From Bacteroidota bacterium (lineage in GTDB: Bacteria; Bacteroidota; Bacteroidia; Flavobacteriales_C; GCA-002722245): DNA of 54,478 bases. Below the pieces are notes generated by a model, which was not told the origin of the DNA, made no database searches, and saw only the letters and a list, made by a program, of their open reading frames with translations. Every line of letters begins with the position of its first letter. Position 1 is the first letter of the stretch. The position numbers and the translations under genes are program-made. The DNA lies in the NCBI GenBank assembly GCA_026390935.1, contig JAPLEZ010000150.1, forward strand, positions 1 to 54,478. The letters run 5' to 3'. Below are positions 45,320 through 54,403 of this stretch, in pieces.

Positions 45320-45449
45320 TGGGCTTCCCTCTCGGAGGAGAGGGGTGTGAAAGCCTTTTCGCGGGAAGGAGGGAGATGGAATAATAAATGATCCATCTCC
45401 CTGCCTTCGCACCTCCCGACACACCCCTCTCCTCCGAGAGGGAATCCCA
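45320..45449. repeat. Dispersed palindromic element, copy A (130 bases)
   Basis: The outer arms share a 24-base inverted repeat starting TTCCCTCTCGGAGGAGAGGG; the inner arms share GGGAGATGGA; the loop is ATAATAAATGA. Each outer arm contains its own hairpin CCCTCTC-GGAG-GAGAGGG. The middle parts of the two arms differ (a CGCGGGAAGGAGG part on the left, a GTGCGAAGGCAGG part on the right). Copy B at 53870-53995 has the same parts in reverse orientation. It lies between two minus-strand genes. Confidence 0.9.
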
Positions 45450-49778: not shown

Positions 49779-50660
49779 ATGTTTAGAGGGTTTCTTTTAG
49801 TGATAATTTCCGTTGTGCTTTTTTCTGCGTGCAAGAAGGATCCAATTGTGATTGATGGCAATGAAGCACCTCCTGATGCCACTGTAGAAACCGTGGTGAA
49901 AGAAAACTATGTCAACAAGTTGTACATTTCTCTGCTCGGTAGAAAAGCTACTTCTGCTGAATTTGATGCAGGAATGGTCATCATCAATCAAGGTAATTTT
50001 TCAAAAAGCAGTCGAACAGAACTAGTGCAAGTGATTCAAGGAAAATCTGAATTTTTCGATAATGAATTTAAAATTGCTTGCGCCAATTTGGTCAATGAAG
50101 CCGATACCAGTGAAGCTCGATCGTGGTTGAATATTTACAAACAAGCACAGCAATCTACCAACGATAAAGATGCTATTGCTTGGCAACAAATGGAAATCGA
50201 CAGGCTTTCGCCGTTTATTCCTTTGGTCAACAATTTACGTGGCGGTACAGTCAGTTTTGTAGAGATGCACAAAACCATGGTAAATAATTCCCTGTACGAT
50301 ATGGTGAATATGGGAACTCAAAATTTTGTAAACTCAATGTTCCTTAATTTTATGTTTCGGGAGCCTACTGATTCAGTTCTTGTGAATGGAATAAGAATGA
50401 TTGATTATGATCCGGGAAAAAAACCTGCGCCCTTTTTATTTTCTCAGGAAGGACATTCAAAAGCAGATTTCATTTCCATATTTTTTAGCAGTGATGAATA
50501 TTTTGAAGGTCAGGTAAGGGCGCAGTACAAACGCTTTTTGTTTCGCGAACCTAGCACCGAAGAAATGGTGGGACAAACCACTAAGTATAAAGCCACCAAT
50601 AGTTTTCAGGCCTTACAGATTTATGTTTTAGCAGGAAATGAGTATGCAGGAATTAAATAA
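49779..50660 (+). CDS. Lipoprotein with repeated (L/F)xRxPTxxE helical motifs (operon gene 1)
   Basis: A 293-residue lipoprotein; the start at 49779 gives MFRGFLLVIISVVLFSACKK (lipobox FSAC). The mature protein is helical and repeats a short pattern: YVNKLYISLLGRKATSAEFD near the start, LNFMFREPTDS in the middle and YKRFLFREPSTEEMV near the end. This YxxxLxRxPTxxE pattern recalls the helical repeats of DUF4214 and the C-terminal part of DUF1553 proteins, but the match is by eye. It overlaps gene 2 of the operon by 23 bases. Confidence 0.75.
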   Translation: MFRGFLLVIISVVLFSACKKDPIVIDGNEAPPDATVETVVKENYVNKLYISLLGRKATSAEFDAGMVIINQGNFSKSSRTELVQVIQGKSEFFDNEFKIACANLVNEADTSEARSWLNIYKQAQQSTNDKDAIAWQQMEIDRLSPFIPLVNNLRGGTVSFVEMHKTMVNNSLYDMVNMGTQNFVNSMFLNFMFREPTDSVLVNGIRMIDYDPGKKPAPFLFSQEGHSKADFISIFFSSDEYFEGQVRAQYKRFLFREPSTEEMVGQTTKYKATNSFQALQIYVLAGNEYAGIK

Positions 50661-51132
50661 GATAGCGCTTTTTGTGCTTTTTGCTTTTGCAATTTTCTCC
50701 TGCAAAAAGGAAGAAGAAAAATATGTGTATGCTGTAAATAGTAAAACCATTAGCGAAGCAGGCGTTCAAAAACCATCGGTTAAAACCAATACCGAATTTA
50801 TTTCCATCACCTATACTGATATTTTCGGCACTACTGTTCCTGCCACTCAGTTAACGAAACTGCAAACTGGTTATTTGGCCTTCGGCGACAAAGGTGTTTT
50901 GGAAGATTTACTCATCCGTAATTTTTTAAATAAAAGCGGAAAAAATTTACCCGCTGCAATTGGTAGTGATGTGAAATTATTCATCAGTGATGCCTACAAA
51001 AAAATATACAATCGCTTGCCCAATGAATACGAGATTTATTATTTGGAAAATCTGATTTCAAAAAATCCGAGTATCACCGCAGAGCTGTTTTATTATGCTT
51101 TGATGACGTCCAACGAATACCGACAATTTTAG
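50638..51132 (+). CDS. Small lipoprotein with one RxPNxxE helical motif (operon gene 2)
   Basis: A 164-residue lipoprotein starting MSMQELNKIALFVLFAFAIF with lipobox FSC. The C-terminal half has ISDAYKKIYNRLPNEYEIYY, the same kind of motif found three times in gene 1, then TSNEYRQF, which parallels the AGNEYAGIK end of gene 1. The two therefore look like diverged members of one family. The start lies inside gene 1 in another frame, and gene 3 starts 4 bases after its stop. Confidence 0.75.
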   Translation: MSMQELNKIALFVLFAFAIFSCKKEEEKYVYAVNSKTISEAGVQKPSVKTNTEFISITYTDIFGTTVPATQLTKLQTGYLAFGDKGVLEDLLIRNFLNKSGKNLPAAIGSDVKLFISDAYKKIYNRLPNEYEIYYLENLISKNPSITAELFYYALMTSNEYRQF

Positions 51133-51136
51133 CAAT

Positions 51137-52444
51137 ATGAAGAGGAGAGCATTTTTAAAAAAAGCAGGAATAGCAACAGCGGGGGCTTTTGTGTTGCCTT
51201 ACATTTTGCCATCGGGCCGCTTGTTTGCCGCTACTGGTAGCAGGAAGGTAAATCACGTGGTGCTGGTTTTATTTGCGGGCGGATTGCGAAATATTGAAAC
51301 AGTAAAACAAAATCAAAGTAACTTAATGTCAACGATGCTGAAAGACATCACTCCTTTCAGCACACAAGCTGGAATTGGCGATGTACTTCCTGCTTCTCCG
51401 CTTGGTTCAAAACGCTTGCAGGAATATGGAACATTGATGAAGGAATTCCGCTTTAAGGAAGGTCCTACCGGCCACTTCAATGGTCACATTACGGCGCTCA
51501 CAGGCAGATACAGCATGGCCGATATTAATTTGCGCACCAATCCTGATTATCCTACAATTTTTGAATATTACAGAAAACACAACGATGATACCTTAACCAC
51601 TGGTGGTTTAAATGCATGGTGGATTTCCGATTCCTTAGGGCCTTATCCTGCTTTAAATTACAGTGCCTATCCAGGTTATGGCGCAAGTTATGGTGCCAAT
51701 TATATTCAGCCAGGTTCCTTGCTCAGTTGGGAGGGATACAATGCCATTGGTAAACCTAAAAACTTTACAGCTGATGAGATGGTGCTGGTGAATAAAATTC
51801 GCGGATTTTGTGATGCCAACTTTGCCAATCAATATGCCGCGGAGTCAGTAGGAGTGGTGAATTCAGCTGATGAAAGAGAACAGCTCAATGCCTTTTTAAA
51901 AGAATTGTATCAGGGCATTTCATCACCTGGGTACAACAGTTGGGGCTTTGGAAATGGAATGACCAACGACCTCGTAAATTTATATTATTCGGAAAAAGTA
52001 ATTCAGAAATTCAAACCTGAATTAACGGTGCTCAACATGCAGGATGTAGATATCTGTCACACCGATTTTACTAAGTATTGCAACGGATTGAGAAAAGCCG
52101 ATTGGGGTGTTTCTCATCTTTGGAATACCATTGAAAACACACCGGGAATGGCAGGTGATACCGTGATGATTGTGGTGCCTGAACATGGAAGAAATTATTC
52201 GCCAAATACGGTGGTTGATTCATACGGTCGACCGGCATACGACCACAACAGTGATGCTACATCGCGTGAAATATTTTGTATGATCGTTGGTCCGAATAAC
52301 GTGGTATATCAAGATAAAGTGGTAACGCAGGAGTATGGCGAAAGTATTGATGTAGTGCCTACCATTGCTGATTTACTCGGATTTAAAGATCGTATTCCAA
52401 GTGGTTTATTATCAGGAAATGTATTGAGTCAGGCCATAAAATAA
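51137..52444 (+). CDS. Tat-exported DUF1501-like protein, alkaline phosphatase/sulfatase superfamily (operon gene 3)
   Basis: A 435-residue protein with a twin-arginine signal MKRRAFLKKAGIATAGAFVL. The core has features of DUF1501/alkaline-phosphatase-fold proteins: VVLVLFAGGLRNIET in place of the nucleophile loop, GPTGHFNGHITALTGRY, DVDICHTDFTKY (metal-type Asp/His cluster) and VVPEHGRNYSPN with a later YDHNSDAT. The usual DUF1501 words (FDTH, EFGRTP) are altered, so it is a divergent subgroup. It is presumably folded with metal in the cytosol and exported by Tat. It is the only non-lipoprotein in the operon. Confidence 0.75.
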   Translation: MKRRAFLKKAGIATAGAFVLPYILPSGRLFAATGSRKVNHVVLVLFAGGLRNIETVKQNQSNLMSTMLKDITPFSTQAGIGDVLPASPLGSKRLQEYGTLMKEFRFKEGPTGHFNGHITALTGRYSMADINLRTNPDYPTIFEYYRKHNDDTLTTGGLNAWWISDSLGPYPALNYSAYPGYGASYGANYIQPGSLLSWEGYNAIGKPKNFTADEMVLVNKIRGFCDANFANQYAAESVGVVNSADEREQLNAFLKELYQGISSPGYNSWGFGNGMTNDLVNLYYSEKVIQKFKPELTVLNMQDVDICHTDFTKYCNGLRKADWGVSHLWNTIENTPGMAGDTVMIVVPEHGRNYSPNTVVDSYGRPAYDHNSDATSREIFCMIVGPNNVVYQDKVVTQEYGESIDVVPTIADLLGFKDRIPSGLLSGNVLSQAIK

Positions 52445-52445
52445 A

Positions 52446-53396
52446 ATGAAAAGAAAAAACTACATAGCAATTTTTTTGATGGCTACTTTTGTCGCTGTGT
52501 TGTTTTTCAACGCATGCAAAAAAGATCCTGCACCAAAAAATCCTTATGACGATGTTGACTACGGAATTAGTGCTTCAACAGATACTTTAGATCCTTTATC
52601 TATCACTGCTATTCACCGTGATATTGTTTTCCCTAAATGCGCTAAGCCGGGTTGTCATGACGGGCATTTTGAACCCGATTTCCGAACAGTAGAATCCACT
52701 TACTCTACAATGGTTTATCAACCTATTACTAAAAATAATGTAGGCAAAACTTTTAAGTATCGTGTGTTGCCCGATTCATCTTCAAAAAGTGTTTTGTATG
52801 AACGACTCAACAATTGTTGCTTTGTAAATAATAACGATAGAATGCCTCAGGACAATATCGGGAAAGCATTGCCAGATGCAGATTTGAACAGAATTAAAAC
52901 CTGGATAGATAATGGCGCAAAAGATATTTTTGGTCAGGTGGCGTTGGTGCCGAACGCGCTTCCTCAATTTCCTTGGTGGAGCGCTTTTGATAATAAATTT
53001 CCTGCGCAGTGGAATTCAATAAGTGATGATACTAACCGTGTTGGAAAAAAAGGTGATCAACCAGTTCTTATGAAAGCCAATCAGATTTTTACTTTAATTC
53101 CTTGGATGAGCGACGACAAAACATCTGTGGCAAATTTCACCAATTGTAAGTTGTTGTTTTCGTACAATCAGTATGATTTTTCTTCTCCTGTAAAAACAGT
53201 TTATCCGGTTAAACAAACTTATGGAAAAGATGCTTTTTGGATAAGTACAGTGAATACCACCGGACTCTTAACCGACACCATTATTTACATGCGATTTTAC
53301 TGCAACGACGGGGATCATGCACAGGACACGGAATTCCCGAATTCTACCATTTGGAAGGGATACCGTACCTATTGGTCCTTGTACATAAAACCTTAA
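52446..53396 (+). CDS. Cytochrome c-like lipoprotein with CX4CH motif (operon gene 4)
   Basis: A 316-residue lipoprotein (lipobox FNAC, Cys24). Residues ~55-160 look like a planctomycete-type cytochrome (PSCyt1-like) domain: FPKCAKPGCHDGHFEPDF has Cys65-X4-Cys70-His71, and NNDRMPQDN supplies a possible distal ligand Met133, followed by LNRIKTWIDNGAKD, a typical C-terminal helix of such domains. The motif is CX4CH rather than CXXCH, so covalent heme is uncertain. The C-terminal ~150 residues are beta-rich without a known motif. The stop overlaps the next start (TAATG). Confidence 0.75.
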   Translation: MKRKNYIAIFLMATFVAVLFFNACKKDPAPKNPYDDVDYGISASTDTLDPLSITAIHRDIVFPKCAKPGCHDGHFEPDFRTVESTYSTMVYQPITKNNVGKTFKYRVLPDSSSKSVLYERLNNCCFVNNNDRMPQDNIGKALPDADLNRIKTWIDNGAKDIFGQVALVPNALPQFPWWSAFDNKFPAQWNSISDDTNRVGKKGDQPVLMKANQIFTLIPWMSDDKTSVANFTNCKLLFSYNQYDFSSPVKTVYPVKQTYGKDAFWISTVNTTGLLTDTIIYMRFYCNDGDHAQDTEFPNSTIWKGYRTYWSLYIKP

Positions 53397-53839
53397 TGAA
53401 CATGTATAAAATATATATCCTTCCATTTTTTCTTATTGTACTTTTTTCGGCTTGCAAAAAGGAAGTGGAAAGCACTGCTCCAAGCATCACTTTTAAAAGC
53501 ATTAGTCCTTCTTCTTTGCAAATTGGAAAAGACAATTTTACCATCACATTTTCTTATTTGGATAATGATGGCGATTTGGGAGAAAACAGCGCCGACGTGA
53601 AAAACATGTTTGTGAAGGACAACAGAAACGGGGTGGTATATCAATTCCGAATTCCGCAATTGGCGCCATCAGGATCAACTATTGCTATTCAAGGAGATTT
53701 AAATATCGACATGCCGAATGTGGGCATTAGCGATGGAGAAAGTACTGAATCGGTTACTTTTGACGTTCACGTGAAAGATAGAGCTGGCAATGAAAGTAAT
53801 ACCATTACTTCAAGTGCGGTGACGGTTAGTGCTCCTTAA
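53396..53839 (+). CDS. Small Ig-like lipoprotein (operon gene 5)
   Basis: A 147-residue lipoprotein starting MNMYKIYILPFFLIVLFSAC with lipobox FSAC. The mature part is one beta-sandwich-like domain with ITFSYLDNDGDLGEN (possible Ca2+-binding DNDGD loop) and VTFDVHVKDRAGNESNTI, typical of Ig-like or cadherin-like folds. Its ATG shares a base with the stop of gene 4. A palindromic repeat lies downstream and may terminate the operon. Confidence 0.78.
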   Translation: MNMYKIYILPFFLIVLFSACKKEVESTAPSITFKSISPSSLQIGKDNFTITFSYLDNDGDLGENSADVKNMFVKDNRNGVVYQFRIPQLAPSGSTIAIQGDLNIDMPNVGISDGESTESVTFDVHVKDRAGNESNTITSSAVTVSAP

Positions 53840-53869
53840 TTTTTTCTCAATGGTTTTTTCGAGTATGGT

Positions 53870-53995
53870 TTCCCTCTCGGAGGAGAGGGGTGCGTGAGAA
53901 AGTGCGAAGGCAGGGAGATGGAATAAAAACAATAATTAATCCATCTCCCTCCTTCCCGCGAAATGGCCATCACACCCCTCTCCTCCGAGAGGGAA
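53870..53995. repeat. Dispersed palindromic element, copy B (126 bases)
   Basis: It has the same outer 24-base-type arms and inner GGGAGATGGA as copy A (45320-45449), with loop ATAAAAACAATAATTAA. Its left arm carries GTGCGAAGGCAGG and its right arm (reverse complement) carries CGCGGGAAGGAGG, so it is inverted relative to copy A. It lies between the convergent end of the lipoprotein operon and the STAS-like gene. Confidence 0.9.
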
Positions 53996-54031
53996 GAGCA
54001 CATCCAAGGCATTCTCTAAAGATGATGTGAT

Positions 54032-54403
54032 TTACTCCTCCAACCAATTCAACGCTGCTTCCTCCGTGCTAAAAGTTTTGAATTTAAAATGAGCGATTTG
54101 TAAGGAGCTTTTTCCGAAAATGTAGGTGAGTGCTGTTTCTTTTGGTCGCGCAACAATGAACGCTTCTTTAACAGTGTTGAATTTTCTTTCGCCGGAAGCA
54201 ACATACTGTCCGAATTGTTTTAACTCTTCAGGAGTAAAAACAAAATCGGCTTTATCGGCATAGGCTAGTAATTTAGCATCTTTCGGGATGCGCTCATGCT
54301 GTTTTATTGTATCAGCATTTTCGTATAAATCCTTCGCCGTTATTTTTCCTAAAAAATGAAATTTGAGAATTTGTGTCTCCTCGTCGTATTCGTAAGTTAT
54401 CAT
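54032..54403 (-). CDS. SpoIIAA/STAS-like small protein
   Basis: A 123-residue cytosolic protein starting MITYEYDEETQILKFHFLGK, followed by ITAKDLYENADTI and a C-terminal FKTFSTEEAALNWLEE. The N-terminal strand pattern and the final helix (TEEAALNWL) are typical of the SpoIIAA-like/STAS superfamily found singly in many Bacteroidota. There is no obvious phosphorylatable Ser in a DSxG motif, so a regulatory partner-switch role is not supported. AGGGG-type purines lie 10 bases before the ATG. The 75 bases to the window end show no gene. Confidence 0.7.
   Translation of the reverse strand: MITYEYDEETQILKFHFLGKITAKDLYENADTIKQHERIPKDAKLLAYADKADFVFTPEELKQFGQYVASGERKFNTVKEAFIVARPKETALTYIFGKSSLQIAHFKFKTFSTEEAALNWLEE

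Follow-up and report, generated by a model that had tools for sequence, protein, structure and literature searches.

Organization and conservation of the operon

A tight row of five open reading frames, here termed g1 to g5, occupies positions 49779–53839 on the plus strand of the window, the 54,478-nucleotide contig JAPLEZ010000150.1 of a Bacteroidota bacterium (assembly GCA_026390935.1). The window is one contig of a genome of 3.76 Mb, to which metagenome-assembled genomes of Flavobacteriales are closely related. The first two genes encode lipoproteins, g1 (49779..50660; 293 residues) and g2 (50638..51132; 162–164 residues, with the start at 50638 or 50644), and overlap by 23 bases, or by 17 if the later start is used. 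A 4-base gap separates g2 from g3 (51137..52444), which encodes a protein of 435 residues predicted to be exported by the twin-arginine translocation (Tat) pathway, and a single base separates g3 from g4 (52446..53396), encoding a predicted mono-haem c-type cytochrome lipoprotein of 316 residues. The small lipoprotein gene g5 (53396..53839; 147 residues) overlaps the end of g4 in the sequence TAATG. Lipoprotein signal peptides were found on g1, g2, g4 and g5, with CKK[DE] after the lipobox cysteine, and the twin-arginine signal of g3 scored 16.2 bits against NCBIfam TAT_signal_seq, just below the cut-off of 16.7. The closely spaced genes and export signals described in an initial annotation of the window were thus present. 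Predicted promoters and terminators at the operon showed no excess over chance.

The gene order was conserved among related genomes. A scan of GTDB species genomes retained 80 loci, in 71 of which the five-gene order was complete: 69, one in which g4 is split by Ns (L153) and one with an extra g5-like match (L175). Of the nine incomplete loci, six are truncated by the end of a contig, which leaves L156, L159 and L174 as genuine exceptions. The operon proteins had mean pairwise identities of 39–56% over the 71 loci, and the median spacing between adjacent genes was 1–9 bases. Pairwise divergence of the five genes was correlated over the same loci (r 0.64–0.84; shuffled maximum 0.19), a result that fits inheritance as a unit, although plain vertical descent could also produce it. 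The 60 nearest genomes contributed 17 further loci of the window's own type (type A; g3 identity 52–90%), together with a paralogous operon (type B; g3 identity 35–41%) at nine loci. Type B has the gene order of type A, except at L056, where g1 was not found, and several genomes contain both types. The g3 profile matched at E≤1e-30 in only two of 395 genomes sampled from the phylum, the host genome included, and the operon therefore appears to be concentrated in near, mostly uncultured relatives. Among cultured bacteria it is carried by Phaeocystidibacter luteus LMG 25704 (L188).

Searches of the whole host genome yielded no match to canonical DUF1501, no DUF1800 and no separate sulfatase, the sole Sulfatase-family match being a phosphodiesterase (PDE)-like paralogue on another contig (C133). 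PSD1 was likewise not found, but control genomes gave no match in that search either. The operon is the only set of its kind found in this genome.

Fold and active site of g3

The predicted model of g3 (pLDDT 80, pTM 0.82) matched a mutant of PafA (5too) with a Z score of 27.1 (root mean square deviation 3.5, 300 residues aligned), followed by phosphatases, NPPs and sulfatases, and Foldseek assigned a probability of 1.00 to the alkaline phosphatase (AP) superfamily fold. As modelled, g3 has this fold. A sequence search of the PDB with g3 gave chance matches only, and a profile search gave only the S1_8A sulfatase, at E 0.24; the Pfam Sulfatase family (PF00884) scored 19 bits, below its cut-off of 25.

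In profile comparisons, the nearest family to g3 was an NPP/PDE-like family of Bacteroidota (A10; E 7e-25 over 289 columns). A DUF1501 group linked to DUF1800 (A8) followed at E 2e-7, and the canonical DUF1501 group (A6) at 6e-4 along the full length; the two DUF1501 groups matched one another at 2e-10. In Pfam scans for DUF1501 (PF07394) the window g3 had no match, and two of 26 relatives matched, the best at E 0.0032. The initial annotation had called g3 a divergent DUF1501-like protein. As an assignment of nearest family this gave way to the NPP/PDE-like relationship; what stood was an active-site pattern common to g3 and DUF1501.

That pattern was nearly invariant. Residues H113, D305, H308, G351, R352, D369 and H370 were identical in 106 of 106 relatives, and E349 in 105. 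The codon of His113 (51473..51475, plus strand, as are all elements given below) lies 10 residues before the glycine of a TG pair. This is the nucleophile position of the AP superfamily, occupied by Cys in sulfatases (C-x-P-x-R...TG) and by Thr in NPPs. When g3 was aligned with A10, the Thr of that family fell on His113, and its first metal-binding Asp fell on Gly48. The putative metal ligands D305-x2-H308 (52049..52060) correspond in this alignment to D190/H194 in the PDE-like proteins, E349-H-G-R-N353 (52181..52195) is the counterpart of EFGRT in DUF1501, and D369-H370 (52241..52246) that of the DUF1501 (G/R)DH.

The nucleophile position was His in all 26 members of the g3 alignment A1 and in all eight A6 and nine A8 sequences, and Thr or Ser in A10. 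In a wider set of DUF1501 proteins it was His in 49 of 49, and the EFGR set was kept save for DFAR in two. The pattern derived from these 49 proteins (His, D-x(1-2)-H, E-x-G-R, D-H) was present in g3, which lacks the AP hallmarks of a Thr/Ser/Cys nucleophile and a first Asp ligand. Judged by sequence, g3 and DUF1501 have a derived active site in common, in which the first Asp is lost, His replaces the nucleophile, Glu replaces Asp in E-x-G-R, and D...H and DH are kept. The protein g3 may accordingly be read as a branch near the origin of DUF1501.

Residues 21–31 of g3 (PYILPSGRLFA, window 51197–51229), directly after the Tat signal, were among the most conserved parts of the protein. Such conservation near a signal peptide is odd, and the stretch may be retained in the mature protein.

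The lipoproteins and the surroundings of the operon

The all-helical g1 passed the Pfam cut-off for DUF4214 (PF13946; 26.3 bits, cut-off 23.2). Among 25 orthologues, DUF4214 was matched by 23, the phycobilisome (PBS) linker by eight, PSD1/DUF1553 by eight (weakly), and PSCyt2 and DUF1800 by one each, consistent with the kinship to DUF4214 suggested in the initial annotation. The first 33 structural matches of the helical g1 model (pLDDT 91) were all phycobilisome proteins, the best being a linker with a Z score of 9.3. This score is modest for a helical protein, yet the uniform list of matches and the Pfam results agree on the predicted fold. The window g2 had no Pfam match to DUF4214, which 18 of 25 g2 orthologues matched at E≤1 (best 7.6e-5). 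The profiles of g2 and g1 matched at E 2.7e-7, in part through the signal peptide, and g2 appears to be a shorter relative of g1. From the matches of g1 and this kinship, the RxPTxxE-type repeats of both proteins can be assigned to a known linker-like fold. Neither protein has the CxxCH motif of DUF1549 (CARCHDHK). The g1 profile matched the large DUF1549/DUF1553 proteins weakly (E 0.0027 over 53 columns), and the g1 C-terminus matched a DUF1800 profile, also weakly but slightly better (E 9.5e-5).

Pfam scans of g4 and its relatives gave no match, PF07635 included, and NCBIfam scans of the single g2 and g4 sequences were likewise uninformative. By profile comparison, the first 165 residues of g4 matched the PSCyt1 domain as it occurs in canonical proteins of Bacteroidota (A11) at E 8.1e-11 over 123 columns, and the g4 profile matched whole PSCyt1-DUF1549-DUF1553 proteins (A7) at 2.6e-9. 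With unrelated pairs at 0.3 and 0.78 and a match of signal peptides alone at 0.009, the proposed PSCyt1 kinship was borne out for the N-terminal half; the C-terminal half is a probable beta-sandwich. The putative haem motif CAKPGCH (CX4CH; 52638..52658) was kept as C65, C70 and H71 in 103 of 104 relatives, and among GTDB loci CX4CH was found in 76 of 77 and CXXCH in none. This motif and the RxPTxxE-type motifs of g1 and g2, both pointed out in the initial annotation, are conserved and not chance occurrences. Haem attachment via CX4CH is known in other c-type cytochromes. Met133-Pro134 (RMP; 52842..52847) is the likely source of the distal haem ligand; the Pro was present in 104 of 104 sequences and the Met in 95, seven rows being gapped. 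Together with an invariant WIxxGA it completes the usual cytochrome c end, and a PDB profile search with g4 found FoxE at 0.009, over the RMP...WIxxGA end only. The host genome encodes TatC and a cytochrome c assembly protein. The motif, the distal Met and the maturation gene are consistent with covalent haem, and g4 is probably a mono-haem lipoprotein.

The protein g5, Ig-like by inspection only, had no Pfam match over cut-off and contains a conserved Y-x-D-x-DGDLG motif, with conserved residues D56, G59, D60 and G62. The lipoprotein export signal (LES) for surface lipoproteins has been described as C-X-K-(D/E)2 (PMC5080379). CKKEEE of the window g2 fits it, and Lys was found at +3 in 79–88% of each lipoprotein family. 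Surface location was considered on this ground, but the strict motif occurred in a minority (g1, 11/94; g2, 11/98; g4, 17/102; g5, 34/101).

Recurrent neighbours of the 80 loci were checked for function, and none was universal. An M20 peptidase gene lay immediately upstream in about a quarter, and other recurrent neighbours were rarer. The recurrent neighbours encode peptidases, tRNA modification, thioredoxin-like and type IX secretion system proteins, with no carbohydrate genes among them. The type B operons at L048, L049, L055, L057, L058 and L061 are followed by a same-strand gene of 1171–1186 residues; in L048 and L055, both of which were scanned, its product has a CHU_C type IX secretion signal as well as PKD domains, joined in one of the two by a CUB domain. 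At L060 (5627–6721) a g3 relative is broken into two pieces without g1, g2, g4 or g5 alongside; its upstream neighbourhood is of the M20-peptidase type, as in intact operons, and it is possibly a decaying copy. In the window, a near-palindromic repeat of about 130 bases has inverted copies at 45324–45447 and 53867–53996, which flank 8.4 kb holding the operon and two upstream genes. The flanking may be coincidence, since about 40 copies are dispersed across the genome. Downstream of the operon, 54032–54403 on the minus strand encodes a small SpoIIAA/STAS-like protein, slightly below the Pfam cut-off.

Proposed function and comparison with known systems

Four lipid anchors, two linker-like folds, one Tat-exported protein with the look of a catalyst and one haem lipoprotein suggest a single envelope complex, in which g3 would be the enzyme, g1 and g2 would form the scaffold and g4 would carry electrons or sense redox state. 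This reading is preferred tentatively, with a confidence a little short of even. Under this model g3 would fold in the cytoplasm before Tat export and would hold the catalytic site, with one metal site retained (D305, H308, H370) and His113 standing where relatives have a Thr, Ser or Cys nucleophile. Because an AP fold with one metal site is combined with His at the nucleophile position, the most likely activity of g3 would be hydrolysis or transfer of an ester group, with a lipid or polysaccharide of the envelope as substrate and perhaps with a covalent intermediate on the His. The lipoproteins g1, g2, g4 and g5 would be anchored to the outer membrane, where g1 and g2, through their predicted phycobilisome-linker fold, may dock g3 and g4 together. 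One haem c would be bound by g4 through CX4CH and the distal Met, and g5 could serve as an accessory binding module. Supporting context is provided by Bacteroidota in which DUF1501 proteins adjoin PSCyt1-DUF1549-DUF1553 proteins. A much bolder extension, that the whole DUF1501 class, with g3 as a small and easily studied member, is a new kind of AP-fold enzyme with a His nucleophile and with an activity gated by, or coupled to, a haem c partner held on phycobilisome-linker-like scaffolds, is regarded as a long shot.

Several observations weigh against the single complex. In the two Cytophagales genomes of L159 and L174, g3 and g4 are separate and neither has g1, g2 or g5 nearby, so its components are not always encoded together. 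The operon encodes no oxidoreductase that would account for the haem. His350 of g3, the usual second-site ligand, has given way to Cys or Ile in 17 of the 106 relatives, and the replacement of the nucleophile by His with loss of the first Asp (Thr to His, Asp to Gly) could mean that g3 is a dead enzyme. A catalytically dead AP fold serving as scaffold or receptor, with g4 as the sole active part in cell-surface electron transfer, would also accommodate type B, in most members of which T111, two residues before His113, is replaced. This alternative is nevertheless considered rather unlikely, for dead sites usually drift, whereas the g3 set hardly varied among the 106 relatives and is kept in the 49 DUF1501 proteins apart from the two with DFAR.

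The initial annotation had regarded the operon as a reduced Planctomycete cassette, and in two respects its reading was left standing: relations to the families it had named were found, and the gene order it had proposed to look for was conserved in related genomes. In a split or reduced PSCyt1-DUF1549-DUF1553 plus DUF1501 cassette, g4 would be PSCyt1 and g1 and g2 remnants of DUF1549/DUF1553. The PSCyt1 profile match of g4, the weak PSD1 (8/25) and PSCyt2 (1/25) matches among g1 relatives and the DUF1501 signature in g3 all agree with such an origin. However, g3 is far nearer to the NPP/PDE-like family than to canonical DUF1501, g1 matches the large protein over a short stretch only, CxxCH is absent from g1 and g2, and descent from an older shared ancestor, or independent assembly, would explain the findings no less well; derivation by splitting is therefore judged unlikely. 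The same annotation had inferred sulfate-ester or carbohydrate processing. A system for uptake or degradation of sulfated or other polysaccharides would be in keeping with the carrageenan and other sulfatases among the top Foldseek matches of g3, with the Verrucomicrobia PSCyt genes near sulfatase genes (PMC5615132) and with the DUF1501/DUF1800 genes adjoining chitin synthase genes (PMC5122149). It is considered improbable here: g3 has no formylglycine (FGly)-type Cys or Ser at the nucleophile position, the recurrent neighbours are not carbohydrate genes, and a sulfated-polysaccharide role is unsupported by a genome without matches to a separate sulfatase, DUF1501 or DUF1800.

In a search of open-access literature, no description of the five-gene version was found. 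PSCyt genes of Verrucomicrobia adjoin families of unknown genes, with function unexplained (PMC5615132), and a redox role has been suggested for PSCyt (PMC2754498). The operon resembles a small, free-standing counterpart of an unexplained Planctomycete protein set. Its five small separate proteins are each easier to express and delete, and the invariant His where phosphatases and sulfatases have their nucleophile suggests a hypothesis that can be tested across the DUF1501 class.

The PSCyt1-DUF1549-DUF1553 (PSCyt2/PSD1) plus DUF1501 cassette of Planctomycetes, Verrucomicrobia and some Bacteroidota (for example L099–L106) likewise places a PSCyt1-type haem domain beside a Tat-exported AP-fold protein, and its DUF1501 protein has in common with g3 the His at the nucleophile position, E-x-G-R and DH. 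The canonical cassettes of Bacteroidota pair DUF1501 with a large protein that has two CXXCH motifs (PSCyt1-DUF1549-DUF1553 by Pfam), at times accompanied by a DUF2231-PSCyt1 membrane protein; the operon, in contrast, consists of five small proteins rather than two large ones, has CX4CH in g4 in place of CXXCH, lacks the DUF1549 core and the second CXXCH, has an extra Ig-like lipoprotein, and contains a g3 nearer to NPP/PDE proteins. The cassettes at L099, L102, L103 and L106 carry or adjoin a further CXXCH protein, which in L099 combines DUF2231 with PSCyt1 and leucine-rich repeats (LRR).

The DUF1800-DUF1501 pair (L107–L118) also occurs in Bacteroidota. Such a pair has been reported next to chitin synthases of bacteria, its DUF1501 protein bearing a Tat signal (PMC5122149). 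The pair resembles the operon in that a DUF1501-type protein stands beside a helical partner, but that partner is single, of about 460–660 residues, and no cytochrome or Ig-like lipoprotein was identified with it. Phycobilisome linker domains (PF00427) and DUF4214 resemble g1 in fold and placement of motifs; g1 differs in being lipid-anchored and in having no phycobiliproteins beside it. The host genome also contains (L051, contig C133) a three-gene set encoding a CHU_C type IX cargo protein, an NPP/PDE-like g3 relative and a GSCFA protein. As in L051, the second and third of these genes are adjacent in three genomes of the genus (L052–L054), the GSCFA family being assigned in L051 only. The NPP/PDE-like Bacteroidota proteins (PF01663/PF01676; L051–L054, L062–L068) are closest to g3 by profile and have the R-x-x-E and GR motifs in common with it, but in them the first Asp (D37), a Thr/Ser nucleophile and DHG are all retained, and they are encoded without haem or DUF4214 partners.

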